The notes under the pieces were generated by a model. That model saw only the letters and a program-made list of their open reading frames with translations. It did no database searches and had not been told where the DNA came from. Position numbers and translations under genes: made by a program. Positions 2,961 to 21,775 of a stretch of 21,775 nt of DNA are shown here, one piece after another. Origin of the DNA: a virus; the IMG/VR virus record IMGVR_UViG_3300044797_000062, positions 1 to 21,775 of that record. The stretch is one strand, 5' to 3'. Each line of letters begins with the position of its first letter. The first letter of the stretch is position 1.

Positions 2961-3221
2961 GTGTCGGGTGATCTTGGCGTATTGACGAGCGGTGGCTCAC
3001 CGACGTTCACCAACGTAGCGGCGAGCGGGACTGTGACCTCTGCCACGGAAGTCTTGACAGCGGCAGCGCCCACGGTGAGCTCGGGTCAGGTCGGGTTCGG
3101 TGCGACTACGGCGGCGAGCGCCACCGCAGGTTCCGGCGGCGCATTGCCTGCCACCGTACAGGCGTATCTCGTGATCAACGTCGCGGGGACAAGCTTCAAG
3201 GTTCCGTACTTCGCGGTTTGA
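2961..3221 (+). CDS. Small structural protein with C-terminal strand motif common in phage tail genes
   Basis: An 86-residue protein with a GTG start directly after the TAA of the previous gene (TAAGTG). The N-terminal half repeats Ser/Thr/Ala/Gly patterns (GGSPTFTNVAASGTVTSATE). The C-terminal half, VSSGQVGFGATTAASATAG followed by QAYLVINVAGTSFKVPYFAV, resembles a conserved ending found on many small phage virion or tail-associated proteins and fibre tips. It is probably all-beta. The exact role is unknown; a head or tail attachment protein fits the location. No alternative in-frame ATG exists, which supports the GTG. Confidence 0.65.
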   Translation: MSGDLGVLTSGGSPTFTNVAASGTVTSATEVLTAAAPTVSSGQVGFGATTAASATAGSGGALPATVQAYLVINVAGTSFKVPYFAV

Positions 3222-3872
3222 TTGTGCCCGCTGATTTCCCTAGCTTCGGGAACCGTGAGTTCACAGATCGACATCGCGAATTTGGCTTGTACGATTCTCG
3301 GCCAACCGGGCATCACGAGTCTTTTTCCGCCTGATCCTTCGGACCGCGCGCAGCAGATTTCCTCCGTCTACGACACGATCCGTCGCGGGATGCTCGAGGG
3401 GCCCGGCATCTGGCGATTCTCGGTCAAGCGGACATCTTTGGCCGCCTCGACCACCGTTCCGGCCTCGGGTCCGTTCACTACGTGCTACGCGCTGCCGTCA
3501 GACTATATCCGCGTCCTGCAGGTCGGCGATATGTATGCGGGGCTGGACTTGTCCGACTATCGTCAGGGGCCGACGGATGCCGACTATTCGATAGAGGGGA
3601 ATTTGCTCCTCTGCGACTACGGCTCGCCTGTCTCGCTTCAGTACATCGCCGATATCACGGATACGACGTTTTTCAACGCGAACTTCTGCATCGCCTTTGC
3701 GGGGCAGCTGGCGTGGACGACGTGCGAGCGCATCACGGGGTCCGATGCCAAACAGGCGACCGCCGAGAAGCGCAAGGATAAGGCAATGGCGGATGCGCTG
3801 GCCTCCGGTGCGCTGGTCAATCCGCCCGGTTATCCGGGGGACAGCGAATGGATTCTTGCGAGAATGCAGTAG
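3222..3872 (+). CDS. Tail tubular protein A-like (T7 gp11 type, head-to-tail adaptor)
   Basis: This 216-residue protein matches the tail tubular A/adaptor family by its opening IDIANLACTILGQPGITSLF, which fits the 'N-x-A-L-x-x-L-G' start, then SDRAQQISSVYDTIRRGMLEG, IWRFSVKRTSL and the 'CYALPSDYIRVLQV' segment. T7 gp11 is about 196 residues. In that family the protein forms the dodecameric ring joining portal to nozzle. The frame begins with TTG directly after the previous TGA; a GTG at 3255 (VSSQIDIANL) is an equally possible start, and neither has a strong Shine-Dalgarno. The next gene's ATG follows the TAG immediately. The nozzle-like partner downstream supports the call. Confidence 0.8.
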   Translation: MCPLISLASGTVSSQIDIANLACTILGQPGITSLFPPDPSDRAQQISSVYDTIRRGMLEGPGIWRFSVKRTSLAASTTVPASGPFTTCYALPSDYIRVLQVGDMYAGLDLSDYRQGPTDADYSIEGNLLLCDYGSPVSLQYIADITDTTFFNANFCIAFAGQLAWTTCERITGSDAKQATAEKRKDKAMADALASGALVNPPGYPGDSEWILARMQ

Positions 3873-6626
3873 ATGGCGCGCGCCTCGCCCGCCATCGCAT
3901 CTTTCGGGAGTGGGGAATGGTCCCCCCAGATGGAGGGGCGCGTCGATCAGGAGCGCTACCCGACTGCGAGTCACATCTCGCAGAACATGATTTCCTTGAA
4001 ACAAGGACCCTCGACCTTTCGGCAAGGGACGGCGTATGTCCAGCCCGTCAAGAATTCAGCGAATCGCTCCTGGCTCGTCCCCTTCGAGTTCTCCCAGCTC
4101 CAGGCCTTCGTCATCGAGTTCGGGAATTACTACGTTCGCTTCTATACCAATCACGGCCCGCTGCTCTCGACTGGTGTGGCTGCTTGGAATATCGCGACGC
4201 CTTACGCTATCGGAGCGAGCGTACTTGAGTCAGGTGCTCAGTACTATTGTGTCCAGGCAAATACCGGAGAGGCCGTTACTAACACCGCCTACTGGTATCC
4301 CATGCCCTCATACAACGGCTCAGCCACGGTCGCGATTTATGAGATTCCTTCGCCATATGCGGCGGTGGATCTCACTGACTCCCTAGGCGAATTTACCTTA
4401 CAGGTGAAGCAGTCAGGCGATGTCTACTACATCGCGGGCGGGGCTGCAGGTACGGGTCCCGCGGGTGTCGGATATGCCCCCTACACGCTCACGCGCTACA
4501 ACAACGCGCCGCCGAATTGGGTGTTCGCGCAATACTCGCCGACCGATGGCCCTTTCGCTGATCCGCTGCCGCTCACCCCGGGCTCTGAGATCGCGCTCAC
4601 CGTCTCCGCCGAGCAAGGTTTGGGTATCACCATCAACGCCTACGGCGGGAATGTCTTTGCCTCGACCGATGTGGGGCGGTTGGTGCGCATTGCCTCGCAG
4701 TTGTTCAACCAGATCCCCTGGCAGACTGATGTGGGCTGGACCACGGGCCAGATCTGCACGAATAACGGAAACAACTATATCGCTCTGACCTCGGGGACTT
4801 CCGGCGTTTCGCCTCCGGTGCATACCGCAGGTTCTGTGACCGACGGCATGGGGACCTCGGGAATCATCTGGCTCTACACCGATTCGAACTATGGTATCGC
4901 GCAAATCACCGCCTATATCTCGCCGACCCAAGTCACCGCGAATGTATTAAAACGCTTCCCGGCGAACGTGGTGGGGTTGGTAGGCTCGATATCTGCGATC
5001 ACGAACGCGTATCCCTGCGTCGTGACGACGAGTCTCGGGGCGAGCTCCATCCCGCAGGGTTCCGCGATCTTCATCACGGGCGTCCAGGGCATGACGCAGT
5101 TGAATGGCAACAATAACCCTGTGGGGTCGTTCCTTTCCGCTCAGGCGCAAGGTGGCCCCTCTGTACAGTTGGCGGGCACCGATTCGACCACGTTTGGTAC
5201 CTACACCTCCGGCGGCACGTTCGTCATGAACGCGACCACCGAATGGCAATTAGGAGCATGGTCCAACACCACCGAGTGGCCACGCGCGGTGGATGAGTTC
5301 AAGGATCGGCTGTGTTGGGCCACCAAGCACCAGGTTTTCGGGTCCGTTCCAGGTCTCTACAACTCGCATACCCCGGATTTCAACAACGTCCAAACGACCG
5401 ATTCGGCGATCAATATCACAGTTCCCGGGTCAGACAATATCGTGTGGCTCTCCGCGGCGATCATCCTGCTGGTCGGGACAACGGGCGGGGAGTACGGCAT
5501 CGACTCGGCGAACTATTCGGCCTCGCCCTTGGGACCTGCGAACATCGAGTGCCTACGGCAGAGTCAGTGGCGCTGCCGGCCGATCACGCCGCAGCTCGTC
5601 GGCACCACCGTTCTTTACGCGCAGCGCGCGGGGCGAAAGATCTTCGCCATGGACTACAACTTTTACCTGAATCGGTACGACTCGACCGATCAAAATAAGA
5701 GCGCCTATCACATCACGATTGGTGGGTTGTCAGGCTTTTGCTACCAGCAAGAGCCGTGGTCAATCCTTTGGGGCTGGCGTCAGGATGGGACGCTTCTCTC
5801 GTACACCTTCAACCGTGAGGACGCCGTGACGGCATGGGACCGCCACAACATGGGCAATGGCGGCTTGGTTGAGTCCGCTGTCTCGATCCCCGCACCTGAC
5901 GGCCTGCGCGATGAAATCTGGCTGATCGTCAACCGCACGATCAATGGCCAGACGGTGCGCACCGTTGAGTACATGGTCAAGCAGTACGAGGGCCCCCAAG
6001 CGGGTTATGCGGGAGATGCCCAGTCCTCAGCCTGGTACGTCGATTGCGGGGTGCAATATGCAGGATCTCCCACGACGACCATTACCGGCCTTCCCGCGGT
6101 CATGTGGGGACAGACGGTATCCATTCTGGCGGATGGCGGCGCGCAGCCGCAGCAGGTCGTGCCCATGGGCGGCACGATCACGCTGCAAGGCTCCTTCAGC
6201 ACCGTGACGGTGGGTTTCCCATATCAGGGGAATTTGGTGCCGATGCGTATCGAGGGCGGCGCGGCGGTGGGAACCGCGCAAGGGAAGATCAAGACCGGCA
6301 CAAAGCTCGTGATTCGCTTGGTCGATTCCTTCGGCTGCACGATTTCGCAATTGACCAACGTCAACACGACAACGGGCGTGTATCAGGATCCCTTGGGGCT
6401 TACCACGATCACCCCGCAGCAGTCCGAGATCGTGCAGATGAACATGACCACGACGCCATTGAACACGGCGCCCCCTATTCAATCGGGTGATTTCCCTGTC
6501 GCGTTCCCCGCATGCCCGAACTCCCCGCAGGACAAGAGCGATTTCTACATCTTGGTGCAGCAGAACTTGCCCCTCCCCCTGACGGTAGTCGGACTTTTCC
6601 CGATCTACAACGTGGCGGACCCATGA
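3873..6626 (+). CDS. Tail tubular protein B-like nozzle protein
   Basis: This 917-residue protein starts with the family signature: 'F-G-S-G-E-W-S-P-Q-M-E-G-R-V-D' (residues 11-25), then KYP-like and 'LKQGPSTFRQGT' (42-53), corresponding to the 'GE.SP...GR.D..Y..g...N.....G....R.GT' pattern of T7 gp12-type nozzle proteins. T7 gp12 is 794 residues, so this one is longer. Extra modules are visible: residues ~104-145 look like a small carbohydrate-binding fold (W105, GA-S-V, Y-Y-C), and ~283-337 a second W/Y-rich module ending in 'DGMGTSGIIWLYTD'. A central part (DFNNVQTTDSAINITVPGSDNIVWL) is typical of the family's beta-propeller region. It builds the tail tube tip. ATG directly follows the previous TAG. 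Confidence 0.82.
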   Translation: MARASPAIASFGSGEWSPQMEGRVDQERYPTASHISQNMISLKQGPSTFRQGTAYVQPVKNSANRSWLVPFEFSQLQAFVIEFGNYYVRFYTNHGPLLSTGVAAWNIATPYAIGASVLESGAQYYCVQANTGEAVTNTAYWYPMPSYNGSATVAIYEIPSPYAAVDLTDSLGEFTLQVKQSGDVYYIAGGAAGTGPAGVGYAPYTLTRYNNAPPNWVFAQYSPTDGPFADPLPLTPGSEIALTVSAEQGLGITINAYGGNVFASTDVGRLVRIASQLFNQIPWQTDVGWTTGQICTNNGNNYIALTSGTSGVSPPVHTAGSVTDGMGTSGIIWLYTDSNYGIAQITAYISPTQVTANVLKRFPANVVGLVGSISAITNAYPCVVTTSLGASSIPQGSAIFITGVQGMTQLNGNNNPVGSFLSAQAQGGPSVQLAGTDSTTFGTYTSGGTFVMNATTEWQLGAWSNTTEWPRAVDEFKDRLCWATKHQVFGSVPGLYNSHTPDFNNVQTTDSAINITVPGSDNIVWLSAAIILLVGTTGGEYGIDSANYSASPLGPANIECLRQSQWRCRPITPQLVGTTVLYAQRAGRKIFAMDYNFYLNRYDSTDQNKSAYHITIGGLSGFCYQQEPWSILWGWRQDGTLLSYTFNREDAVTAWDRHNMGNGGLVESAVSIPAPDGLRDEIWLIVNRTINGQTVRTVEYMVKQYEGPQAGYAGDAQSSAWYVDCGVQYAGSPTTTITGLPAVMWGQTVSILADGGAQPQQVVPMGGTITLQGSFSTVTVGFPYQGNLVPMRIEGGAAVGTAQGKIKTGTKLVIRLVDSFGCTISQLTNVNTTTGVYQDPLGLTTITPQQSEIVQMNMTTTPLNTAPPIQSGDFPVAFPACPNSPQDKSDFYILVQQNLPLPLTVVGLFPIYNVADP

Positions 6627-7536: not shown

Positions 7537-9719
7537 TGGCGCGTGGGGTACCCGATGAGGAGGTTGCGGCACCGAATGTGACGCCGGAGGACTTCCCGCG
7601 CAAGGTCGTTCCATACATGGAGGAGCCGCCGAACGTGGTCGGTGGCTTCGCGGACGCAGCGACTGCCACGGCCAAAAAATACACCGCGGATTCGGCGAGC
7701 TGGGCGGGCGATCAGATTGCGCAGTTTCGCACCCAAGCGATTCAGCAGCTGCAGCAGGCGAAGGACAACGCACCCACCGGCGACCCCGGGGAATTTGCTG
7801 CGAACTTCAAAGCTCAGATCGATAAAGCCGGCGCGACCATGGTGCAGAAAGCGCAGGGCAATCCTGTCGCCTCCACCATGCTACAGAAAGGCATCTCAGA
7901 CCTTTCGGACACGCTTTTTGAACATAACCTCCAGTGGGAGGCGCAGCAGCGAGTTGCCGCAAGGTTCGATTCGATCCAGACGAACCTCAAGACGCAAGCC
8001 GCCGTGGTCGAGGCGCATCCGGAGCTTGCGCAGAGCGTCGGCTCGACCCTCATGGATCAGATCAATACCGCAGGCGGCGATCCCTCGACGCGGCTGCGCC
8101 TTGCGCGTGCGGTGAACGAGCAGCTGTCCCAGTCGGCCGCCGCGGGCATGACTCGGCAGAATCCCGCCGGAATGCTCGCGGCGCTCAAGGACCCGGAGAA
8201 TGCACCGGCCAATCTCAAAAGCGTCCTATCGAGCTTGAATGACGAGCAGCGCGAGGCGATCCAATCCCACGCCACCGCGCAGTATTCGAATCAGGTGTCA
8301 GACGGGGTGGTCAATACCTACCGAAATCAGGGACCCATCGCGGGCGCGCAGGCGCTATCCGCCATCGACAAGCTCCACCAGACGGATGAGGTAAAGGCGT
8401 CCATACGATCGGACGTAGAGCGCGGGTTGCAGCAGTGGCACGCTGAAGCGCGCCAAACCCACCAGCAAGACATCATGGGCCTCGAGGAGCGCTTGGGGGA
8501 GGGTAAGCCGCTTCCCAGCGATTCAGGCTTGGCGCTATCGCTCTGGCGCAACGGCGCCTTCACGGGCGAACAGGCGGGGGAATATCGCGGGCGCATCGGC
8601 CGCGCGATGGAATCCCAAGCGGGCGATCAAGCGGACCTCTCGGCTTATTTGGACGCGTACAAGAACGGGAAGCCGCTCGACCCGAAGGACAAAGATGTCA
8701 AAACGGGTGTCGCGGCGCTCTTCAGTCAGCTGACGAAGAACGTGCAGCCCGGGTCAGCCGAATGGACCAATCGCGGTGCCGATATCGCCTCACGCACCGG
8801 GGTGGTTCCGGAACCTGTCCTCTCGTGGGCGCGCGCGAATCTCGTGAGCGGCGATCCGCAGTCGGCCGCGCAGGGCGCACAAGCCATCAGCCGCATGGAG
8901 GAGGCGAGCCCGCTGGGTATCGGCTACGCGCTCGAGGATAAGGAAAAGGCGCAGGCGAAGATGATCAACGACATGACGCAGGCCGGGACACCGGCGCAAC
9001 AAGCCGTCGAGACCGCGCGCAAGATCAATGATTTACCTGACGCAGCGCTCAAGCGCTTGGACGAGACCTACAACGCAAATCAGCATGCCTTTGCCTCGAG
9101 CGCGCCGACTGCGCTCAGGAGCGAACTCAAAACCTTCAAGTCCTGGGGTCTTGGGAGCCTGCCTAACATCCCGCCCGCGATGGAGGGTGAGTTCGAGCAG
9201 CTGCAGCAGAGCTACTACAAAGCGACGGGCGGGAATATCGCGCAGGCGCGCGATCTGGCCGCGCATGACCTGCGACAGTCGTGGGGTGTGACCCAGGTCA
9301 ACGGTCAGCGCGAGTTCATGCAGTACGCACCGGAGGCGATGTTTCCCGGCCTCACCACGAAGATGATCCGCGACGACATCGCATCGTCCGTGACAGCCGC
9401 GGGACCGTATGACCCATCCAAGGTGCGCTTGACGCCAACGACCGATACAGCGACCACACAGGGGCGCGTGTGGGGGCTTTCCGTTCCGGATCAGTTCGGT
9501 GCCTACGATGTGATTCGCGGACCGGACAATAAGCCTATTCGTTACCAGATCCCGGATGCGACGGATGCGGTGCGCGCGGAGCGCGATCGGTTGGCGAAGG
9601 AAGGCTTGGCGAAAGCGAAGGCGCTCCAAGAGTCCGACTACATCGCGCACAAAGCGGAGTACGACGCTTTCAGCGGTGCGCAGGAGAAGGGAGGGCGGGC
9701 GCCAGTGCCCGGATTCTGA
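7536..9719 (+). CDS. Internal virion protein C-like (T7 gp15 type)
   Basis: A 727-residue, largely helical protein rich in Ala, Gln, Glu, Lys and Asp, with no transmembrane segment or signal peptide. T7 gp15 is 747 residues, so the length fits. In T7 this protein forms the periplasmic tube of the ejectosome with gp16. Motifs are loose; typical stretches are DQIAQFRTQAIQQLQQAKD, KAQGNPVASTMLQKGISDL and, near the C-terminus, RVWGLSVPDQFGAYDVIRGP. Its ATG shares one base with the previous TGA (TGATG), and its own stop shares one base with the next ATG, so gp14-, gp15- and gp16-like genes form a coupled set. The assignment rests on length, composition and synteny. Confidence 0.75.
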   Translation: MARGVPDEEVAAPNVTPEDFPRKVVPYMEEPPNVVGGFADAATATAKKYTADSASWAGDQIAQFRTQAIQQLQQAKDNAPTGDPGEFAANFKAQIDKAGATMVQKAQGNPVASTMLQKGISDLSDTLFEHNLQWEAQQRVAARFDSIQTNLKTQAAVVEAHPELAQSVGSTLMDQINTAGGDPSTRLRLARAVNEQLSQSAAAGMTRQNPAGMLAALKDPENAPANLKSVLSSLNDEQREAIQSHATAQYSNQVSDGVVNTYRNQGPIAGAQALSAIDKLHQTDEVKASIRSDVERGLQQWHAEARQTHQQDIMGLEERLGEGKPLPSDSGLALSLWRNGAFTGEQAGEYRGRIGRAMESQAGDQADLSAYLDAYKNGKPLDPKDKDVKTGVAALFSQLTKNVQPGSAEWTNRGADIASRTGVVPEPVLSWARANLVSGDPQSAAQGAQAISRMEEASPLGIGYALEDKEKAQAKMINDMTQAGTPAQQAVETARKINDLPDAALKRLDETYNANQHAFASSAPTALRSELKTFKSWGLGSLPNIPPAMEGEFEQLQQSYYKATGGNIAQARDLAAHDLRQSWGVTQVNGQREFMQYAPEAMFPGLTTKMIRDDIASSVTAAGPYDPSKVRLTPTTDTATTQGRVWGLSVPDQFGAYDVIRGPDNKPIRYQIPDATDAVRAERDRLAKEGLAKAKALQESDYIAHKAEYDAFSGAQEKGGRAPVPGF

Positions 9720-12700
9720 TGCCGCTCCTGCCACAAGATACCGATTTGGAGATGCAGAAGGGCGCACCGCTCTCTCTCCCGGCGAAGCCTGCTGCGCCGG
9801 CGTCTCCGTCATTCCTCGACACTGCCGCAGCCGCCGAGCGCACGTCCAACCTTGCCGGCACGCTGTATGACTACATCTCGCAGCCGCCGCCGGACGCCAA
9901 AGCCGTTCCCGGCTTCGACCCACTCACCAGCATCCCGAAGGGCTACGAGTCGCAGGCTTCAGCTTTCGTCGGGGCCACCTCGCCCCAGGAAATGCAGTGG
10001 CGTAAGGAAAAGGTGGATCGCGAGAACGCCGACCGCAAGACCATCGCCGCTGCGGGCTGGCCGGGCGTCGCCACCACCATGGCGGCTGGCCTCACCGATC
10101 CATTGACGATCGCGAGCATGGCGCTGCCGTTGGGCGGCGAAACACGGCTAGCACAGGCCGGACGATTCGCGCTGGCCGCCGGCGCGACTACGGCGGCGCA
10201 GGAAGGTGCGATGCAGGGCATGGAATTGACTCGCACGAAGGGCGAATCAGCTCTCAATATCGCCGCTTCCACAGTCGTCGGTGGCATCCTCGGCGCTGCT
10301 ATTTCACCGCATGTCTCGAAATCCATATTCGATCGACTGGGCGCGGATCTTCAACCGGAACGTACACCAGGGACAGGATCACTATGGTCTGGCTCTGAAA
10401 AAGTTCTCGGCCCCATTGACGGTATCCAGCGCATCATCCCAGAAGAGAGCGTGAAGGTTCCGGCTGCGCATCCCGCATCCGAACCTGCCCCCATCAAAGC
10501 GCCGGAACCTGTTGAGGGTGAAATGGCGAAGGAGGGCGGTGCGCATGACCACGGCAACGGCACATCGACGGTCAAAGTAGGCGACACGGAAGTGCGGGTT
10601 CCGAGTGAGCAGGCCGAAAAGATCGGCGCGGAAGCCGCGCAGGCACAGCAATTGAAACTCCCCGAAGTCCCGCAGGCCATAACGGAAATCCCCGAAGAAT
10701 CGGGATTCAAGGTCAATCCCACCGATGAACAGTCCTTCGGTGCCGCCGGTGTTTCAGGCCCCACGATGCGCGGTGAGACCATCGCGCGCGGCGCGCAGAC
10801 ATTGGCCGAGGGCCCGCTCGGCCAGGTCTCCCCCGGCGCGCGGCTCATGGCATCGCCGTCCCTACAGTCCCGCCGACTCATCCAAGAGCTTGCCAACATC
10901 CCCGAGACGACGACCAAGAACCACGAGGGGATCGCCACAGCGTCGCCCATCGAGCGCGAGTTGTGGAAACAGAAGGGCGTGCATTGGCAGGGTATGCTGG
11001 CACGCGGCAAGGCGTTCAAGGCGTACCGAGAACGTATTGCCGGGACCGGCGAGCAGCCGCTCTCGCGTAAGGAATTCGGCGAGGAAGTCGCAAAGGCGAT
11101 GCGCCGCGGCGACACCCACCAGATACCAGAAGTCGCAAAGGCCGCTAAGGATACGCGCCGGATCGTGTTCGAGCCGTTGAAAGTGCGTGCGCAGAAAGTA
11201 GGTGCGCTTCCCGAAAATGTCCGGGCGAAAGGTGCGGAGTCCTACCTCATGCGCCAATACGATGGCCAGAAGATCCGCGGCAACCTCTCCGACTGGATGG
11301 ACAGGCTCACCCGCGGCTTTATGGGACAGGGCGTCGATGTGGCCGAGGCGCGCGATATCGCCCATTCCGTGACGCGCAACGTCTTGGGCTCAGAGCGCGG
11401 CACGATGGATTGGAAGACGCTCGAATCTGTACCTGGATCGGGACAGTTGAAAGAGCGCACGCTCGATTTACCCGACACGCTGCTTGAGCCGTACTTGAAC
11501 AACAACATCGATTCTCTATCGGACTCCTACCTGCGCTCGCTTGCCCCGGAAGTCGAGATGCGTGAACGCTTTGGCTCGATCGACATGGCGGACCAGCTCG
11601 CCGACATGAAAGACGATTACGCCCGGATGATCGAACGCGAGACCGACGATGGCAAGAAGCAGGATCTGTACAAGCGCATGGAGGCCGATGTACGCGACCT
11701 CGCCGCGGTGCGCGACCGCCTTTACGGTATCTATGGCCAGCCAAAGGATCCGGGAAGCTTTGCGGTGCGCGCCGGACGGATACTGCGATCGGTCAACGCG
11801 CTGCGCCTCTTGGGCGCTGCGACCCTCGCGCATTTCCCTGATATGGCGAATGTCATGATGCGCTACGGCTTGCCGCAGACCTTTTCGGCCATCGGCAAAG
11901 TGCTGACCAGTCCCGAAGCCTTTAACCTGACGCGGAGCCAAGCGAAGCGCATGGGGGCCGGGCTCGATATGAGCATGAACGCAACTGCTTCCATGCTCGG
12001 GGACTATTCGAATCACTCCGACTGGCTACCGCAGCAGATCGCGAACCGCATGTCGAAGGCGTTCACGATCACGACCGGTGAGACGCCGCTGATCACCGCG
12101 GTCCAGCAGCTCACCTCGACCATGGCGCAGGACGAGCTCATCCGAACCGCCGGCAAGGTGGCGGCCGGCACGGCGGTGAACAAGAACCTGCTCGCGCGCA
12201 TGGCCGCAGCGGGGATCGATCAGAACATGCTCACCCGCATCGCCGCTCAGCACGAAGAGTTTGGCGCGAAGGTCAACGGCCTCAATTTCGGTATGTCGGA
12301 TCAGTGGACTGACAAGGAAGCTGCTTCCGTGTTCGAGTCAGCCGTCCTGCGCGATGCGCATTCCGTCACCCTCCACCCCGGGGTGGGTGATACGCCGCTC
12401 TTTATGTCAACGGAGTGGGGCAAGACCCTCCGTCAGTTCACGACGTTCGGTTACGCCGCGCAGCGCTCTGTCGTCAATCCGCTGATGCAGGGATTGGCGC
12501 ATGGCGACCCCCGTGCCGCGCAGGCATTTCTCGCGCTCACGGCCATGGGAACGCTCTCCTATGTCTCGAAGCAAACCGCAGCTGGCCAACCCATCGAGCC
12601 GTGGGATTCGCCGAAGTTCGCCCTTGAGGTGCTCGACAAATCGAACCTCATGGGCTGGACGTCGGACTATGTATTCCCCTCGCTTTGGATGATGGGGATG

Positions 12701-16861: not shown

Positions 16862-17322
16862 CCAGCCTAGAGCGCACCGCGTGTGAGATCGTCGTGGGAT
16901 TGATGATGCTGTTCGGCTTCGTCCTCTACGAGCGCCACGAAGGGGCAAAGCGCTGCGAGAATGCGGACAAGACCGCCGTTGCGGCCCAGGTTGCGCACAA
17001 CGAAGTCATCCAAAAGAGCGATGCCCAAACCATCAACCAAGAGGCGATCGACTATGCAAAAGCTATTGCCGCCACTCCTGATCCTGTCCCTGTGCTTACC
17101 TGCGTGCGTTACTACACGCCCGCAGCTCTGCCCAAAGCCACCACCGCCCAACCCGCAGGCCATGCAGCCCCCGAACTACCAACAGCAGCTGGACCAAGCT
17201 TTGACCCCGCCCCAGCCGTTGCAAAAATAGGGCAGGCGGCGGATGCGCAGATTGCCGAGCTTCAGGACTACGTCAGGCGCGTTTGCCTCGCCGAACCAGC
17301 AGCAAGCCACCCAGCAAAGTAA
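16858..17322 (+). CDS. Rz: Rz-like inner-membrane spanin (i-spanin)
   Basis: A 154-residue protein with an N-terminal anchor at ~10-25 (EIVVGLMMLFGFVLYE) and a charged periplasmic segment (RHEGAKRCENADKTAVAAQ). A Pro/Ala-rich part follows, and the C-terminal helix IGQAADAQIAELQDYVRRVC is a coiled coil of the kind seen in prophage Rz proteins. i-Spanins join o-spanins across the periplasm to fuse inner and outer membranes in the last step of lysis. Two features support it: its place after the endolysin and small membrane genes, and the nested lipoprotein at 17054. The last 50 bases overlap the convergent gene on the other strand. Confidence 0.8.
   Translation: MTSLERTACEIVVGLMMLFGFVLYERHEGAKRCENADKTAVAAQVAHNEVIQKSDAQTINQEAIDYAKAIAATPDPVPVLTCVRYYTPAALPKATTAQPAGHAAPELPTAAGPSFDPAPAVAKIGQAADAQIAELQDYVRRVCLAEPAASHPAK
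17054..17230 (+). CDS. Rz1: Rz1-like outer-membrane lipoprotein (o-spanin), nested in Rz
   Basis: Entirely inside Rz in the +1 frame, as in lambda. ATG 17054 has AAGAGG at 17039-17044. The 58-residue product begins with a lipoprotein signal peptide (MQKLLPPLLILSLCLPAC) with lipobox LPAC, lipidation at Cys18. The mature part of 41 residues is proline-rich (12 prolines, including KPPPPNPQAMQPPNY), like lambda Rz1. After lipidation it would sit on the inner face of the outer membrane and bind the C-terminus of Rz. A longer frame reading from 16961 has no lipoprotein start and is not preferred. Confidence 0.85.
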   Translation: MQKLLPPLLILSLCLPACVTTRPQLCPKPPPPNPQAMQPPNYQQQLDQALTPPQPLQK

Positions 17323-17746
17323 GCGCTGCGAGCGCCGTCCCCGAATCCATCTCCGGTGCCGCTGCCGGCGGATCGACGACTGATCCCTTGCACGCCCCCA
17401 AGTAATCGTTACCCCCGCTCGGCGTATCGTTCCCGCACGACCATCCGTTATTCCCATCCTGCGTATAGAACGCCCCCACGATTTGCGTACCCGATAGCGT
17501 GTATTGCAGCGTCCATATTTCCGATCCCGCCGCCTGAGCTGAGGAAGCCCCCTCGAGATTAATCAGCACCCCACCGCTAGAGCCCGTATTGGCCTCAGTC
17601 AGCATCCCGCCGCCGATCCCGTCTGTGACTGCTACGGTAGGCGATATCGTTCCATCGAACGAGTAAGAGCCCATCGTTAAGTCGAAATCAAACGTCTGTG
17701 CACTCGCCACCCCAGAGAATAGGGCTAGCGCTATCATTGTTTTCAT
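17273..17746 (-). CDS. Secreted protein with PEP-CTERM-like sorting tail
   Basis: A 157-residue protein with a cleavable signal peptide (MKTMIALALFSGVASA, cleavage before Gln17), a beta-rich Gly/Ser/Thr body with two cysteine regions (GWSCGNDTPSGGNDYLGACKG) and a C-terminal tripartite tail from ~131: PEMDSGTALAALTLLGGLLL followed by VRRGKRA. Short Pro-Glu motif, membrane helix and Arg/Lys tail are the layout of PEP-CTERM sorting signals, which exosortase recognises in some Gram-negative bacteria. The ATG has a strong Shine-Dalgarno (AGAGGTGAT). It is the last gene of the minus-strand train, 41 bases after its neighbour, and its 3' end overlaps Rz by 50 bases. It may be a lysogenic-conversion or moron gene; its binding target is unknown. 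Confidence 0.7.
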   Translation of the reverse strand: MKTMIALALFSGVASAQTFDFDLTMGSYSFDGTISPTVAVTDGIGGGMLTEANTGSSGGVLINLEGASSAQAAGSEIWTLQYTLSGTQIVGAFYTQDGNNGWSCGNDTPSGGNDYLGACKGSVVDPPAAAPEMDSGTALAALTLLGGLLLVRRGKRA

Positions 17747-17787
17747 GGTCCATCACCTCTTTTTGATATTCGAACAAGTCCCACTTT

Positions 17788-17985
17788 TCATCCCACCTCA
17801 AGCTCACCTGGCCTATCAGACTGTGATCCATAGGCATTCACCGCCCTCACAATGCGAGCCGCGTTTTCTTTTGCAACCTCGCCAGCATTGGAAGATCCGT
17901 AACACTCGCCTATTGGCACGCCATCGGCATCACAAAATGCCCATGGGAAGTCGTCTTGGACGCGCCAGGGTAATTTCCTATACAT
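17788..17985 (-). CDS. Small hypothetical protein (65 aa)
   Basis: ATG 17985 is chosen because GGAGGGGGAG lies directly upstream; a longer frame from 18045 has no such signal. The product has the sequence feel of small prophage proteins with 'W.V.D..G..I.....' and 'NAARIVRAVNAY' (residues ~43-54). Such proteins recur in phage accessory regions without assigned function. The start overlaps the end of the upstream gene by eight bases. Confidence 0.65.
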   Translation of the reverse strand: MYRKLPWRVQDDFPWAFCDADGVPIGECYGSSNAGEVAKENAARIVRAVNAYGSQSDRPGELEVG

Positions 17986-18283
17986 GCTCTCCCCCTCCGC
18001 TGGCCTGTGAACGCAGATGCTCTTTAAGCTCCGCCACGGCGTCACTTATTAAAAGCTCTCTACCGGAATCAGAATCTGGATCGGCCGACCACGCCGTGCA
18101 GACCAGCTTCATGATTTTTCGCCAGTCGGCCTCCCGGATGACGCGAGCCTTGATCTTCCTGCGCGGCGGGTGCGTTGCCATGGTAAGCGTGCCCAAGGGG
18201 GTCTCGCCCGCGTCTATCGGAACAGTCTCGAACTTGGCTCGTACTGCTCTGGCGTGGTTGTAGGCGGTTTGGAGTTTAGCCAC
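17978..18283 (-). CDS. Small hypothetical protein (101 aa)
   Basis: GTG 18283 is preferred over ATG 18373 because GGAGGGGGAG precedes it, the same signal as for the next gene downstream, and because the longer form would overlap the upstream gene by about 100 bases. The product is basic in the first half (HPPRRKIKARVIREADWRKI) and acidic-helical in the second, ending SGGGEHV. No domain is recognised. The gene overlaps both neighbours by eight bases. Confidence 0.6.
   Translation of the reverse strand: MAKLQTAYNHARAVRAKFETVPIDAGETPLGTLTMATHPPRRKIKARVIREADWRKIMKLVCTAWSADPDSDSGRELLISDAVAELKEHLRSQASGGGEHV
17986..17998 (-). repeat. Repeated ribosome binding segment, copy 1
   Basis: The minus strand reads GGAGGGGGAGAGC directly before the ATG at 17985. 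The same 13 bases precede the GTG at 18283. Both also encode GGGE near the C-terminus of the gene upstream. Confidence 0.75.
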
Positions 18284-18518
18284 GCTCTCCCCCTCCATCG
18301 GACGGTGAGTCTGCCGTCCAGTAAATTTTGCGGGCCTGCGCGAGCAGATCATTGATCTGATTTCGAAAGCCATAGACCAAATCTCGGTGCGGCAGGAGGC
18401 TCTTCATAACAAAGTCGTCAAGACAATCGCGGAAGTGCCCCCACTCGGCGGCGGTCGCAGTCGTCGTTACCGTGTAGACGATCTGATTAGGATCTTCACA
18501 CTTCAATCGCATCTTCAT
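18276..18518 (-). CDS. Small hypothetical protein (80 aa)
   Basis: ATG 18518 has AGGAACG in the end of the upstream gene and shares ATGA with that gene's stop. The product reads MKMRLKCEDPNQIVYTVTTT, then 'AAEWGHFRDCL' and 'FRNQINDLLAQARKIYW', a layout seen in small proteins of prophage accessory regions (strand-rich start, then helices). It ends SDGGGERG, which encodes the Shine-Dalgarno for the next gene. No enzymatic motif is seen. Confidence 0.65.
   Translation of the reverse strand: MKMRLKCEDPNQIVYTVTTTATAAEWGHFRDCLDDFVMKSLLPHRDLVYGFRNQINDLLAQARKIYWTADSPSDGGGERG
18284..18296 (-). repeat. Repeated ribosome binding segment, copy 2
   Basis: Identical 13 bases (GGAGGGGGAGAGC on the minus strand) directly before GTG 18283. 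The flanks differ, with partial similarity about 13 bases further upstream. Confidence 0.75.
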
Positions 18519-18676
18519 TGCTTCGTTCCTGTTTCGGCGGTAGCAAAAATCCAGTCGTGCCACAGCAGTCCTGTAATCAGACCGGACGGGAATGCAAATC
18601 GCCACGTAGGCAAAAGCGTTTCGAGGATGGCGAATACAAGCCATACCACGAGCGTCAAGAGAATCTTTTTCGTCAC
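18515..18676 (-). CDS. Small membrane protein (53 aa)
   Basis: GTG 18676 overlaps the TGA of the upstream gene (GTGA), with AGGAG nine bases before it. The product starts with a Lys pair and a transmembrane helix at ~5-21 (ILLTLVVWLVFAILETL), then a second, weaker hydrophobic part (FAFPSGLITGLLWHDWIF). It has no known family. It might be an inner-membrane protein such as an exclusion or holin-like factor, but only its topology is supported. The C-terminal AETGTKQ codons supply the next gene's ribosome binding site. Confidence 0.6.
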   Translation of the reverse strand: MTKKILLTLVVWLVFAILETLLPTWRFAFPSGLITGLLWHDWIFATAETGTKQ

Positions 18677-18891
18677 GGTTCCGCTCCTGTTTCGGCAGTA
18701 CGTTGCGGCTCGATATCGAATCGCACTGACTTGCAGATGTGCCACACGCGAGCCGTCGCGATGTCCTCTAGCGCCTCGGCTATCGTGCCCGCCAATTGGA
18801 TCTCGCTCGTCACGGGCTTCCACTGTTTCTCAGGCACGGCGCGCGGCAAATTGTCGGGCGGCTCGACCGTCATGCGCACGATGAACTTCAT
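18673..18891 (-). CDS. Small hypothetical protein (72 aa)
   Basis: ATG 18891 overlaps the upstream TGA (ATGA) and has AGAGGCAAAGGA just upstream. The product begins with a strand (MKFIVRMTVEPPDN), continues with a helix (TIAEALEDIATARVWHICK) and another strand (VRFDIEPQ), and ends in AETGAEP. It looks like a compact alpha/beta protein. I recognise no family. Confidence 0.6.
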   Translation of the reverse strand: MKFIVRMTVEPPDNLPRAVPEKQWKPVTSEIQLAGTIAEALEDIATARVWHICKSVRFDIEPQRTAETGAEP

Positions 18892-19088
18892 TCCTTTGCC
18901 TCTGGATTGACTGGAAAGCTCCGTAGGTCCGCGAGACACTTCTCGCAGATATGGTGCTCAACGGCGCGCATTGGCTTTTCCACCATGCATTCTTTGGTGG
19001 CTTCCTGTCTCCAGTAGATACCGCGCAATGGCTCGGCAGCGCCGTTGGAGCCGCAAAGATTGCAGTAGTAGGCTCGCGTCACGGTCAC
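18888..19088 (-). CDS. Cysteine-rich small protein, probable zinc-binding (66 aa)
   Basis: GTG 19088 overlaps the upstream stop (GTGA) with CGGAG nine bases before it; the longer frame from 19151 lies inside the upstream gene. Two CxxC knuckles are present, C9-N-L-C12 and HHIC-E-K-C near residue 50, with an extra Cys (KECM) and two His in between. That spacing fits a small zinc ribbon or treble-clef-like domain. Proteins like this in phages may bind nucleic acid or host proteins; no partner can be named. Confidence 0.65.
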   Translation of the reverse strand: MTVTRAYYCNLCGSNGAAEPLRGIYWRQEATKECMVEKPMRAVEHHICEKCLADLRSFPVNPEAKE

Positions 19089-19270
19089 TTGGGCTCCGAA
19101 GTTGAAGTATGAGTAGCTCGCCACGCGCGCAGCTCGTCGGCCAGCGCCCATCGCTTCGGGCCTTTGCCGCCGCTGAACAGCCGGGGGAAATCAAGCCTGC
19201 CCTGGTTCTCGACAGCCGTAAAAAGTGCCAGTTCAGCATCGGTCACTTCGGCGTATTTGTCAGTGCTCAT
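19085..19270 (-). CDS. Small hypothetical protein (61 aa)
   Basis: ATG 19270 (ATGAGC) is preferred to GTG 19279 because the same ATGAGC junction with the same 11-base overlap occurs at 19803. The product is a charged helical protein (TDAELALFTAVENQGRLDFP; KRWALADELRAWRAT) ending TSTSEPK. No motif is recognised. Its stop overlaps the start of the cysteine-rich gene. Confidence 0.55.
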   Translation of the reverse strand: MSTDKYAEVTDAELALFTAVENQGRLDFPRLFSGGKGPKRWALADELRAWRATHTSTSEPK

Positions 19271-19739
19271 TTGCGTCACTCGATGGGAGGCCGAGGCTCA
19301 CGTTGTCGGGGCGTGAAGGTGAGCGTGCCAATGCGGCTATTTTGGCCGTCGCAAGCTCGGCTTTTGCTTTCCGTAATTCTGCGACATAGCCGGTGCGCAA
19401 GGTGTCCCGCTCGTTCTCGGCGTCTACGCGGGCGTTCACTTCGTCTTGATAGCGAATCTTGAATGATTCCAATTCACCGGCAATCGTCACGCGCAGATCG
19501 TGTTCGCGCTGTCGGCTGTTGCGACACTCGGCAAGCTCGGTCTCAAGCTCACGGATGCGGCCCTTTGCCGCCACGATCATCTTGTGGTGATGCAGTTCAG
19601 GATACGGCGTCTCTGTGTCGTACTTCAGGTTCTCAATCAGCCTTTGTAGCTTGATTGAATACTCGATATCGACCACATCACCCCGGCGCGCCCAGATGCC
19701 ATCCGGCGACTCGAATCCCATGCTGTCGTAGTACTTCAT
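19260..19739 (-). CDS. Coiled-coil hypothetical protein (159 aa)
   Basis: ATG 19739 has GGAGAAG eleven bases upstream. After a 60-residue N-terminal part (MKYYDSMGFESPDGIWARRG, then YSIKLQRLIENLKYD) the protein is one long coiled coil, about residues 55-142 (GRIRELETELAECRNS; ESFKIRYQDEVNARVDAENE; ELRKAKAELATAKIAALA), ending in a Pro/Ser tail. It has no membrane segment or catalytic motif. A scaffold-like or host-protein-binding role is conceivable. Confidence 0.65.
   Translation of the reverse strand: MKYYDSMGFESPDGIWARRGDVVDIEYSIKLQRLIENLKYDTETPYPELHHHKMIVAAKGRIRELETELAECRNSRQREHDLRVTIAGELESFKIRYQDEVNARVDAENERDTLRTGYVAELRKAKAELATAKIAALARSPSRPDNVSLGLPSSDANEH
19265..19282 (-). repeat. 18-base junction repeat, copy 1
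   Basis: The plus strand reads GCTCATTTGCGTCACTCG, covering the start ATGAGC of the 61-residue gene and the last codons of the coiled-coil gene. The copy at 19798-19815 differs at one base. Confidence 0.75.
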
Positions 19740-19803
19740 GGCTTAACTTCTCCGCTAGCTCCGGGCCTGAAATAATCACAAAATGGTCCTTGTTACCGCT
19801 CAT
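19678..19803 (-). pseudogene. Gene ghost or 41-residue mini-ORF between two genes
   Basis: ATG 19803 opens inside the end of the upstream gene with an 11-base overlap identical in layout to that of the gene starting at 19270. The frame reads MSGNKDHFVIISGPELAEKL and then runs into the coiled-coil gene, stopping after 41 residues. A second frame between the same genes ends at 19736-19738 with codons for GASGEVKP and a stop that overlaps the next ATG, exactly like the other gene ends here, but has no start codon. A start in one frame and a typical end in another, 68 bases apart, fit a gene that lost its middle through a frame-shifting deletion. A real 41-residue protein cannot be ruled out. Confidence 0.4.
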
Positions 19804-19999
19804 CTGCGTCACTCGCCTTGATGCCTAAAGCTGCCCCAAGAAAATTGCGCAGCGCGGCGGCCTCGGATGGCTCAAGCGCGATACTGTGATCGCCGTCGGA
19901 TTCCTCGACTAGTACGAACAGCCGGTCTCCCTCGCCTTCGTAGACCGAGGCCGCCACGTCGTGGCATGTCATCTTGGGAACCTTGCGGAATTTCCTCAT
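19793..19999 (-). CDS. Small acidic hypothetical protein (68 aa)
   Basis: ATG 19999 overlaps the upstream TGA (ATGA), with GGGGAA eleven to sixteen bases upstream inside that gene. A basic start (MRKFRKVPK) leads to a compact acidic alpha/beta part (DRLFVLVEESDGDHSIALEP) and a helix (SEAAALRNFLGAALGI). It ends ASDADER. No family is recognised. Confidence 0.65.
   Translation of the reverse strand: MRKFRKVPKMTCHDVAASVYEGEGDRLFVLVEESDGDHSIALEPSEAAALRNFLGAALGIKASDADER
19798..19815 (-). repeat. 18-base junction repeat, copy 2
   Basis: The plus strand reads GCTCATCTGCGTCACTCG, one mismatch from the copy at 19265. In both copies the ATG lies 11 bases before the end of the upstream gene's stop codon. 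Confidence 0.75.
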
Positions 20000-20265
20000 G
20001 GCTTCGTTCCCCGGTCAGAAGTAATCGCCTCGAATTTCACCTCGACGCGCACGAGTCTTGCGTGAGGCAGTGACGCCCGCGCGAGTTTCAGATACGGAAG
20101 CGCCTCACGCCGCGTATGCCAGGTTGCGGTACGCAGACCCGCGACCGGCGGCTCAGGGATGCGCCTGCCATCCTCGAACCACCAGCGGCCGATGAGCCCG
20201 TGCCCTTCATCGGTGTTCATATCGATGACCCAATAGGGCTTGTGTGCCTTCCAGTGGTTGTTCAA
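19996..20265 (-). CDS. Small hypothetical protein (89 aa), TTG start
   Basis: TTG 20265 overlaps the upstream TGA (TTGA) with CCGGAG in the correct place, so it is preferred to the ATG at 20220. The N-terminal part that the TTG adds (NNHWKAHKPYWVIDMNTDEG) flows into HGLIGRWWFEDGRRIPEPP and 'TATWHTRREALPYLKLAR', which looks like one small domain rich in aromatic residues. It has no recognised function. The last codons, DRGTKP, contain the ribosome binding site of the next gene. Confidence 0.6.
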   Translation of the reverse strand: MNNHWKAHKPYWVIDMNTDEGHGLIGRWWFEDGRRIPEPPVAGLRTATWHTRREALPYLKLARASLPHARLVRVEVKFEAITSDRGTKP

Positions 20266-20648
20266 GGCTTGGCTCCGGTTTTCGATGTATGACCGTCGTC
20301 CGCCACGTGAGGGCCGTCATGGGCGTGAGGCAGACGACAGCAGTAATGCCACCCATTCATGGCCTGCATAAATGAACAATGGCCATTTTCGAGATAGCCA
20401 GCGTCGAACCAATTTGTAGGCTTCGCAATCGTTTCCGACTGAGACGGCAGCAATGCTTCGGCCTCGCGCAACCGCAGTTCGATACACTGGAAATTGGTGT
20501 TGCCGATGACCTGGCGCATCTCTGGCTCGTTCATGTACAGAGAGCCATGAACTTCGTTGCGCAGCTTACGCAGCGCCTGCTCGAGCGCCGCGATGCGGGC
20601 CCGTAATGCGGCGACAGTTCCAACGGATTCACCGTATTCCTTGATCAT
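20262..20648 (-). CDS. Hypothetical protein with coiled coil and Cys/His-rich C-terminus (128 aa)
   Basis: ATG 20648 shares ATGA with the stop of the mini-gene upstream; upstream in-frame TTG 20708 and ATG 20678 lie within that gene and lack good ribosome binding sites. Residues ~10-33 form a coiled coil (VAALRARIAALEQALRKLRN). The C-terminal part has WHYCCRLPHAHDGPHVADDG, a Cys/His cluster resembling short 'CRLP..HDGPHVADDG' endings in small actinobacterial and phage proteins, which may bind a metal. It ends KTGAKP. Confidence 0.6.
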   Translation of the reverse strand: MIKEYGESVGTVAALRARIAALEQALRKLRNEVHGSLYMNEPEMRQVIGNTNFQCIELRLREAEALLPSQSETIAKPTNWFDAGYLENGHCSFMQAMNGWHYCCRLPHAHDGPHVADDGHTSKTGAKP

Positions 20649-20773
20649 GACTTCGGCTCGTTTTGCGCAGGAAAGCATCCGCGAACGGTCCAGTACAGCC
20701 AGAGCCAATGATCCAGCCTGCCGGCTCCTCTACCGCGCCATGCGTTCCAATAAATAGCGGCACGATAAATCAT
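20645..20773 (-). CDS. Aromatic-rich 42-residue protein
   Basis: ATG 20773 overlaps the methyltransferase TGA (ATGA), and its own TGA overlaps the next ATG (ATGA), so it is linked on both sides. The product is MIYRAAIYWNAWRGRGAGRL followed by DHWLWLYWTVRG and a short tail QNEPKS. Eight Trp/Tyr residues cluster in a stretch that could lie on a membrane surface. It has no family I recognise. Confidence 0.5.
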   Translation of the reverse strand: MIYRAAIYWNAWRGRGAGRLDHWLWLYWTVRGCFPAQNEPKS

Positions 20774-21450
20774 GCGAACAGCCTCCCTTGTGCATACGCG
20801 GCTTTGATGCGTGTACATGCGATATCGAAGTATTTCTCTTCGATCTCGATCCCAATGAATTTTCGTCCTAAATTGGCGCAGGCTATGCCCGTGGTACCCG
20901 ATCCCATGAACGGATCAAGAATCGTAGCCGCATCGTGTTTGTCGATTAGCGCGCACAGAAGGGAAACCGGCTTTTGATGTGGATGCGACCGACTTTCGCG
21001 GTCGCCAAGCCCCTTGAATTGAGTTTCCCAGCTAACCTGAACATGGCCGCGCAGCACGCCCTCATCGCGTTTGCCGCTCCAATTCTGACCTCGAATATAG
21101 ATCAGTTCGAAGCTGGGCTTCCAAGGGAAGGCAAGATCCCCCATTCCGAACGCTGGCCCCTTATCAAAAACAAGACACCCTCGCGTATTTGCAATCGGTG
21201 GCGTTTTCCAAGTGCCGAATGAGGCGACCTCGGAGAATGGCTGCAGCATTTCGTCACGCAGCGTCGTATCGCTGTCGCCCGCAATGACAGTATTCTGCCA
21301 AGACGCCCCATACGATGATTTGTGAGCGATCCCATATGGTGGGTCAGTTATCACCGCGTCAACCCTCGGCAGCGTCGGCAGGATCTCCCGGCAGTCTCCG
21401 AGATAGAGCGTGGCATCGCCAATTTGTACGGGATCAATGGACATCGCCAT
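20770..21450 (-). CDS. DNA methyltransferase, DPPY type (N6-adenine or N4-cytosine)
   Basis: A 226-residue enzyme when started at ATG 21450, which has GGAGG eight bases upstream; ATG 21480 would overlap the upstream gene by 47 bases with no such site. The catalytic motif DPPYG is at residues 36-40. A short target-recognition region follows, then a HPHQKPVSLL segment and the AdoMet-binding motif DPFMGSGTTG (179-188), then 'GRKFIGIEIEEKYFDIA'. Catalytic motif before AdoMet motif is beta-class order. It is short for the family. It probably methylates phage DNA and so may resist host restriction; no endonuclease partner is seen. The target sequence cannot be predicted. Confidence 0.85.
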   Translation of the reverse strand: MAMSIDPVQIGDATLYLGDCREILPTLPRVDAVITDPPYGIAHKSSYGASWQNTVIAGDSDTTLRDEMLQPFSEVASFGTWKTPPIANTRGCLVFDKGPAFGMGDLAFPWKPSFELIYIRGQNWSGKRDEGVLRGHVQVSWETQFKGLGDRESRSHPHQKPVSLLCALIDKHDAATILDPFMGSGTTGIACANLGRKFIGIEIEEKYFDIACTRIKAAYAQGRLFA

Positions 21451-21637
21451 GCTCGCTGCCTCCGCGTTGTGGATCGTCATGCACGTAGATAACGCCCTTG
21501 GAATCGTGATCCTTACGGGGAAGGCACACTAAACATCCAATGTCGGCAATATGGCCACCAAGGATAGTTCCGTCATCAGTACACGGAACAATGTGCCGAT
21601 TGCCATCGCGATCCTCAATTGTTCCCCAATGACTCAC
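21434..21637 (-). CDS. Small hypothetical protein (67 aa), upstream of the methyltransferase
   Basis: GTG 21637 is preferred: AAGGAA lies six bases upstream and the GTG overlaps a TGA (GTGA). ATG 21724 would lie inside the methyltransferase remnant. The product opens SHWGTIEDRDGNRHIVPCTD and has one CxxC-like pair (GCLVCLP), an acidic middle and 'VIYVHDDPQRGG'. Short proteins of this type occur in phage accessory regions. Its 3' end overlaps the methyltransferase start by 17 bases. Confidence 0.6.
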   Translation of the reverse strand: MSHWGTIEDRDGNRHIVPCTDDGTILGGHIADIGCLVCLPRKDHDSKGVIYVHDDPQRGGSEHGDVH

Positions 21638-21669
21638 TTCGATTCCTTGATGGATGCGGAGCCTTTCAT
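21634..21669 (-). other. 11-codon mini-ORF between methyltransferase remnant and next gene
   Basis: ATG 21669 overlaps the TGA of the methyltransferase remnant (ATGA) and the frame ends in TGA overlapping the next GTG (GTGA), coding MKGSASIKESK. The position mirrors the 42-residue mini-gene after the intact methyltransferase. It might be a translational relay carrying ribosomes to the next gene, or the remnant of a longer gene. I cannot show it is a functional peptide. Confidence 0.3.
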
Positions 21670-21775
21670 GCAAATAGCCTCTTTTGCTTTTGTGCCTGCT
21701 CAATGCGCTCGCAAGCGATATCAAAATATTCCGGCTGCATTTCTATCCCGGTGAATTATCTTTGGAGATTCGCGC
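21666..21775 (-). pseudogene. C-terminal end of a second DNA methyltransferase, with in-frame stop
   Basis: Reading leftwards from the window edge, the frame gives ANLQR, a TAA at 21756-21758, then FTGIEMQPEYFDIACERIEQ and a tail ending KQKRLFA before TGA. The intact neighbour ends ANLGRKFIGIEIEEKYFDIA and finishes QGRLFA, so the two align residue by residue and the TAA stands where a Lys is expected (AAA or AAG to TAA). This second copy is therefore truncated by a nonsense codon about 29 residues before its natural end, unless the base is a sequencing error. Only the last 36 codons are in the window, so the state of the rest is unknown. Confidence 0.65.

Follow-up and report, generated by a model that had tools for sequence, protein, structure and literature searches.

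The window analysed here is the whole of the 21,775-base virus contig IMGVR_UViG_3300044797_000062 from IMG/VR, and the elements in question are the start/stop junctions of an operon of small genes on its minus strand. These junctions are probably conserved connectors and the sites where single genes are swapped by short-homology recombination. The structural module is encoded on the plus strand. Its major capsid protein matches PHROG 3437 (E 1.7e-62), which places the virus among the HTVC010P-type podoviruses; its identity is 34% over 99% with the protein of HTVC010P and 48.7% with that of MW202898.1, the best named relative. The minus strand from ~21.8 to 17.3 kb consists of very small genes in a chain, together with a DNA methyltransferase. 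As the end of the contig falls within this operon, part of the early region is missing. Since the gene caller misses window genes, the window junctions (15 starts) were curated by hand.

An unprompted repeat search of the minus strand between 17700 and 21775 returned three junction families as its first three hits, and all copies lie on gene junctions. The first family, T1, comprises four copies of 31 nt with 68-77% identity to the reference copy, located at 20259..20289 (TTGA overlap, upstream protein tail TSKTGAKP), 19993..20023 (ATGA, TSDRGTKP), 18670..18700 (GTGA, TAETGAEP) and 18512..18542 (ATGA, TAETGTKQ). T2 is formed by two copies of 28 nt at the GGAGGGGGAGAGC junctions at 18283 and 17985, called T2a (18281..18308, GTGGCTAA overlap, tail SPSDGGGERG) and T2b (17983..18010, ATGTATAG overlap, tail SQASGGGEHV). 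T3 also has two copies, of 26 nt, at the CGAGTGACGCARATGAGC junctions 19803 (19790..19815, ATGAGCGGTAA overlap, tail KASDADER) and 19270 (19257..19282, ATGAGCACTGA overlap, tail SSDANEH). A further type, T4, has one copy in the window (18888..18914, tail VNPEAKE). The length of the overlap is specific to the family, with 4 nt (NTGA) in T1, 8 nt in T2 and 11 nt in T3. The start codon is TTG (20265), ATG (19999), GTG (18676) or ATG (18518) in T1 and GTG or ATG in T2.

The four T1 strings, with the forced tails TGAKP, RGTKP, TGAEP and TGTKQ, had already been pointed out in a first-pass annotation made from the sequence alone, and so had the second type with GGGE tails (GGGEHV at 17985, GGGERG at 18283), the free choice of start codon and the sharing of ends by unrelated genes. 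All of this is confirmed, the last point both within the genome and with relatives. T3 had gone unnoticed, so that the repeated types in the window are three instead of two. Looser versions of T1 had also been proposed: the one at 18891 belongs to a different family, T4, which is found in relatives, the one at 20648 is weak, and nothing convincing is present at 19088.

The junction repeats also dominate an ungapped all-versus-all self-comparison. Its top score (190) pairs the tail of a second methyltransferase with that of the first, and ranks 2-6 are all junction pairs: 102 (T3), 97 (junctions 19739 and 18891), 92 (T1), 88 (T2) and 81 (T1). The maxima of ten dinucleotide shuffles of this comparison ranged from 73 to 85.

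The early strand was compared with the capsid strand in ten genomes, using overlapping or abutting junctions only and dropping pairs with homologous upstream or downstream genes (E<=1e-2). Within genomes, 8/2973 pairs on the early strand score at least 80, versus 0/2088 on the capsid strand; at a score of at least 75, the counts are 13/2973 and 0/2088. Between genomes, a score of at least 80 is reached by 18/27265 early-strand and 2/18727 capsid-strand pairs. A few of the early-strand matches are false junctions, for example, 21354 within the methyltransferase. When 218 opposite-strand junctions (18 records) were compared in a locked register, 7 of the 1511 within-record pairs and 5 of the 22142 between-record pairs score at least 80, with 5/8402 within-record pairs on the capsid strand, and position-specific Markov simulations yielded zero such within-record pairs in 30 runs. 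The 20 pairs observed at a score of at least 60 were never reached in 2000 shuffles of the record labels (mean 3.3), a test that does not correct for genome base composition. A composition-aware, offset-tolerant simulation gave one pair of at least 80 per run (four runs), versus 29 in the real data (295 candidate starts, ten records). In the lambda O-Q region, taken as a small outside control, the top score among 55 pairs is 52. Chance, as well as the Shine-Dalgarno sequence plus NTGA alone, which the first-pass annotation had itself named as an outcome that would refute its reading, is excluded by the strand control, by the Markov simulations together with the label permutation and by the composition-aware simulations.

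Relatives were gathered via the capsid protein (32 loci, then 80 loci), their non-structural regions being taken piecewise; they are labelled G003, G004, G005, G007, G009, G012, G014 and G032, and their loci by L and a number. G007, whose capsid gene has 77% nucleotide identity with that of the window, carries the ordered pair CGATGGAGGGGGAAAG (L064:13097) and CCAGCGGAGGGGGAGAGCATG (L064:13377). The window has CGATGGAGGGGGAGAG at 18283 and, at 17985, an identical 21-mer (21/21). The slot enclosed by T2a and T2b holds a 101-aa gene in the window versus a 96-aa gene with CxxC motifs in G007; homology between the two was undetected with an E<=1e-2 filter, and the genes outside the slot differ too. 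Among viral contigs, the T2b 21-mer was found in one other contig, that of G007, in the same kind of slot (the window's own record is possibly outside the scan), and it is absent from every GTDB species genome searched. In G005, a weaker pair of T2a-like (L061:7073) and T2b-like junctions encloses a third gene, of 122 aa, and weaker counterparts of T2b are also present in G003 and G009.

The other families recur as well. T1 is found in G003 (L057:3269), with 20/24 positions identical to the window copy at 19999; the exact T1 motif (a 23-mer with RTGA) gave 0 matches in viral contigs, a scan from which the window's own record is possibly absent. The T3 copies of G003 (L057:3460) and G009 (L065:10332) agree at 23/25 positions, and each is less like the T3 of the window. 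T4 sites lie at 18891 in the window, at 6259 and 6537 in G005 and at 11966 and 12300 in G009. The families follow each other as T1-T1-T3-T3-T4-T1-T1-T2a-T2b in the window, T4-T4-T2a-T2b in G005, T3-T4-T4-T2b in G009, T1-T3-T2b in G003 and T2a-T2b in G007; in these five, the order T3-T4-T2a-T2b is never reversed.

A second pair of relatives, G012 and G014, has three junctions in common, again with the order kept: P (34/41), Q (26/27) and R (30/32). Their capsid genes have 84% nucleotide identity, and 72% at third positions; hence, Q and R are conserved better than a core gene. The Q copies start with GTG in one genome and ATG in the other, and a 25-mer of Q occurs in the contigs of G012 and G014 only. 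No homology between flanking genes was found at P and Q by blastp at E<=1e-3 (R is unpaired, its start in G014 being uncalled). A sensitive search at E<=5 of G012 versus G014 gave, for P, Q and R, no flanking-gene match below E 0.1 among the matches listed, the best being the tails themselves. The proteins upstream of P have a weak N-terminal likeness by eye (MSxxxxTSNP) and may be distantly homologous.

The most direct evidence for a putative breakpoint comes from one gene of the window, at 18276..18518 on the minus strand (80 aa). Its one homologue among the records searched is in G009 (74%). The DNA identity extends from the ATG to ~30 nt before the next start, and beyond these edges the junctions of the two genomes differ: upstream, T1 in the window and another leader in G009; downstream, T2a in the window and T4, with the tail ENQSGGGE, in G009. 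The gene body is thus shared, and both connectors, including the last dozen codons, are different. The first-pass annotation had proposed to check whether changes of gene order break exactly at the junction motifs. In this gene, the one in the window for which it is testable, the similarity stops at the junctions (exactly at the start codon on one side), but the two phages carry different junctions there.

The remaining genes of the chain, all on the minus strand, can be placed relative to these junctions. From upstream to downstream, they are a 128-aa gene (20262..20648) with T1 at its end, an 89-aa gene (19996..20265) with T1 at both ends, a 68-aa gene (19793..19999) with T1 before and T3 after it, and a putative 41-aa open reading frame (ORF) (19678..19803), which is opened by T3 and overlaps the next gene. 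This next gene (19260..19739) codes for 159 aa, likely a coiled coil, and has T3 at its end. It is followed by a 61-aa gene (19085..19270) with a distant homologue in G004 (47% over 51 residues), a 66-aa gene with CxxC pairs (18888..19088) ending in T4, a 72-aa gene (18673..18891) ending in T1 and a small hydrophobic gene of 53 aa (18515..18676) with T1 at both ends. Beyond the gene at 18276..18518 come the 101-aa gene of the T2a-T2b slot (17978..18283), a slot that holds different genes in G007 and G005, and a 65-aa gene (17788..17985) opened by T2b. The hydrophobic protein has a possible distant homologue in G003 (L057 3269-3463, reverse-strand coordinates; E 0.003-0.006), whose gene is likewise opened by T1. 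Ten of the small genes were tested against Pfam, and no family scored above the cut-off; five were tested against PHROGs, and none matched at E<=0.01, 20262..20648 being among those without a match. For the gene at 17978-18283, a search of viral contigs found no relative.

At the upstream end of the operon, the minus strand at 21775-21666 is identical at 70/110 nt to 20879-20770, the end of the methyltransferase at 20770-21450, and is the tail of a second DNA methyltransferase; both stop with GCATGA. A putative 42-aa ORF (20645-20773) joins the GCATGA stop of the methyltransferase to the next ATGA start, and the gene chain would therefore be unbroken there. The methyltransferase may have a weak T2-like leader (21448..21467, minus strand, GCGGAGGCAGCGAGCATG, 15/18), with scores of 48-49, below the thresholds used. 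Comparison of a phage collection with the minus strand (6.8 kb) yielded only four weak matches, and three of these carry the annotation methylase or methyltransferase. The methyltransferase was rejected as a marker of relatives: the phages found share that gene alone among the minus-strand genes compared.

A connector, as it is understood here, comprises the final 8-13 codons of the gene upstream, including the Shine-Dalgarno sequence, and the overlapping stop and start. Since it holds all that ending one gene and beginning another requires, a crossover anywhere inside it would keep the frame and the ribosome binding. A gene that ends in a connector could then be followed by whichever gene starts in it, without loss of the reading frame or of ribosome re-initiation, and translation would be coupled at the connectors. 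Exchange between copies of a connector, in one genome or between co-infecting relatives, would result in the harmless insertion, deletion or replacement of one gene, and the connectors would keep their order along the operon through changes of the cargo genes. Recombination of this kind may well be the origin of repeats that exceed the controls, are shared between non-homologous genes, keep their order and, for one gene, differ around a shared body. A single-strand annealing protein of the phage could carry out the exchange: G007 and G009 encode Erf, and G014 encodes Sak4. Modular assembly through microhomology had been suggested in the first-pass annotation. Modular exchange is the part that the present comparisons favour; the microhomology is not, as the tracts measure 20-40 nt and stand in the same order in relatives, and so look like an inherited set of connectors and not like fresh microhomology joins. 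The chances are about even that the junctions (tail, Shine-Dalgarno sequence, stop and start) further constitute a heritable conserved frame of the early operon, on which interchangeable cargo genes are docked, one at a time, without harm to their neighbours.

Several observations weigh against exchange at the connectors. No near-identical relative without a window gene was found, and no insertion or deletion event was caught in the window. An annealing protein was recognised in only 3/12 records; the window, itself a fragment, is not among them, and the search did not extend to further families such as RecT. The T1 and T3 matches between the window and its relatives are moderate (20/24; 18/21 and 21/27), and T2b in G005 and G009, as well as T3 in G004, is supported by ~10-14 nt only (~10 nt for T2b in G005). 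The families were named after the data had been seen, which makes the order result descriptive. Neighbouring junctions of the same family occupy 3/13 adjacent positions (P 0.07) or 4/12 (P 0.012), depending on how the nested ORF is counted, and this weak enrichment makes single genes flanked by repeats suggestive only. Gene calling relied on a home-made program, and the list of junctions includes false entries, like the one at 21354 already mentioned. Finally, when all junctions are counted (325 capsid-strand starts), the contrast between strands at a score of at least 80 becomes weaker, with 10/4207 early versus 3/5309 capsid pairs within genomes and 18/38941 versus 13/46612 between genomes; the capsid-strand matches obtained with all starts are largely one intergenic GC-rich element.

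The junctions could instead be translation-coupling or regulatory elements under selection, with the genes between them diverging past recognition, so that swapping would be unneeded. The conserved junction order is compatible with this, the slot genes are alike in length (101, 122 and 96 aa), and other phages have start-associated sequences of unknown function. The gene at 18276-18518 behaves in the opposite way: it is conserved in G009, yet neither of its junctions is the same there. Moreover, the paired CxxC motifs of the G007 slot gene have no equivalent in the window slot gene, and one genome contains several unrelated junction types, the exact sequences tested being private to pairs of relatives. 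Selection without exchange is, hence, unlikely.

Adjacent repeated junctions would also be left behind if a gene had been duplicated in tandem together with its leader and the bodies of the two copies had then diverged beyond similarity. The best within-genome pairs of the window do each flank one gene, and the same operon holds two methyltransferase paralogues; however, no paralogy was detected between the flanked neighbours, and sharing between genomes with non-homologous flanks requires another process, which makes duplication an improbable source of the pattern.

Protein-level selection might also have acted on the shared C-terminal tails as functional peptides, such as tags for degradation or for binding a partner. 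Tails of the types TxxTGxKP, GGGE, SDAxE, VGKDGGT and AEHGK are indeed common to unrelated proteins, but they differ from family to family. In five independent junction pairs, the differences at codon positions 1, 2 and 3 amount to 6/46, 10/48 and 6/45, and this lack of a third-position excess is unlike selection on the tail peptide; the Q pair of G012 and G014 is identical at synonymous sites as well. The differences in the T2b pair are distributed as 1, 1 and 3, and among the T1 pairs, those beyond the closest one, which are not independent, tend towards more differences at the third position (e.g., 3, 1 and 5), a tendency which counts against exchange. Overall, protein-level selection is very improbable. 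Least credible of all is that the similarity reflects only the Shine-Dalgarno sequence, codon usage and the NTGA overlap: in-frame reading of the Shine-Dalgarno sequence does account for part of the tails GG, PE and DGG, but the strand control, the simulations and the restriction of the T2b 21-mer to one other viral contig contradict it.

Other repeated sequences were seen near gene starts in the relatives. A GC-rich, hairpin-like element, TTGATTGTGCCCG...CGGG, lies just before different structural-gene starts in several of them and in the window (~3218-3255, plus strand); its sites are G003 L027:5680, G004 L028:5004 and 12303, G005 L030:12377 and G012 L046:11820. In G007 (L064), TAATCCAGGAGGAAATGTGCCATGACC is repeated (25/27) ahead of two possible gene starts, at 9117 and 9810. 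The starts at 5266, 6464, 6781 and 7329 of G032 (L170) have a similar leader, which in three cases is AGGAGAGACGAA-ATG, much like start-associated sequences.

Several known systems resemble the junctions of the window. The PeSL cassettes of T4-type phages consist of an early promoter and a stem-loop in intergenic DNA and were proposed to mediate single-gene shuffling. Like them, the window connectors are short regulatory sequences between genes that may shuffle single genes. Unlike them, the connectors are translational and coding, and the minus strand from 17200 to 21775 contains no sigma-70-like promoter site (other promoter types were not covered by this search), so that the junction repeats are unlikely to be sigma-70 promoters.

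Start-associated sequences (SAS) and extended start-associated sequences (ESAS) are known from cluster K mycobacteriophages and cluster EF Microbacterium phages. There, many non-structural genes of different families have a repeat where the ribosome binds that goes beyond what a Shine-Dalgarno sequence needs, as is the case here (PMC3203893, PMC7302621). The SAS has one 13-bp consensus in 11-19 copies, is cluster-wide and lies mostly before genes with gaps of more than 50 bp (PMC3203893, PMC7302621). In the window, by contrast, the sequence differs from family to family, and the families have 4, 2 and 2 copies. The distance of 3-7 bp before the start does fit, but T1-T3 lie inside the upstream gene, with a 4-11-nt overlap and not a gap.

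The closest likeness is with the boundary sequences of lambdoid phages, short module-edge sequences through which homologous recombination could exchange modules; such sequences are reported not to be identifiable at most mosaic joints (PMC3029335). Whether mosaics come from recombination between short stretches of common sequence or from illegitimate joining at random, sorted by selection, is still debated, and Rad52-like phage recombinases are described as acting on short, diverged sequences (PMC3945230). The reuse of junctions between unrelated genes and related viruses bears on this question of how virus genomes become mosaics. A phage group in which boundary-like sequences occur within coding DNA, at many joints of single genes, allows exact predictions for crosses and deletion variants, and it cautions against reading a common function into C-terminal tails that small phage proteins share. 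No previous description of junctions shared in coding sequence, of shared tails or of shuffling linked to starts was found in the limited literature searched. As with boundary sequences, a short sequence is common to the edges of modules, with non-homologous DNA on both sides. The connectors of the window differ in lying inside coding sequence, in joining single, very small genes, in carrying the Shine-Dalgarno sequence with the overlapping stop and start and in giving unrelated proteins the same C-terminal tail; they are a new, coding variant of the boundary-sequence idea.

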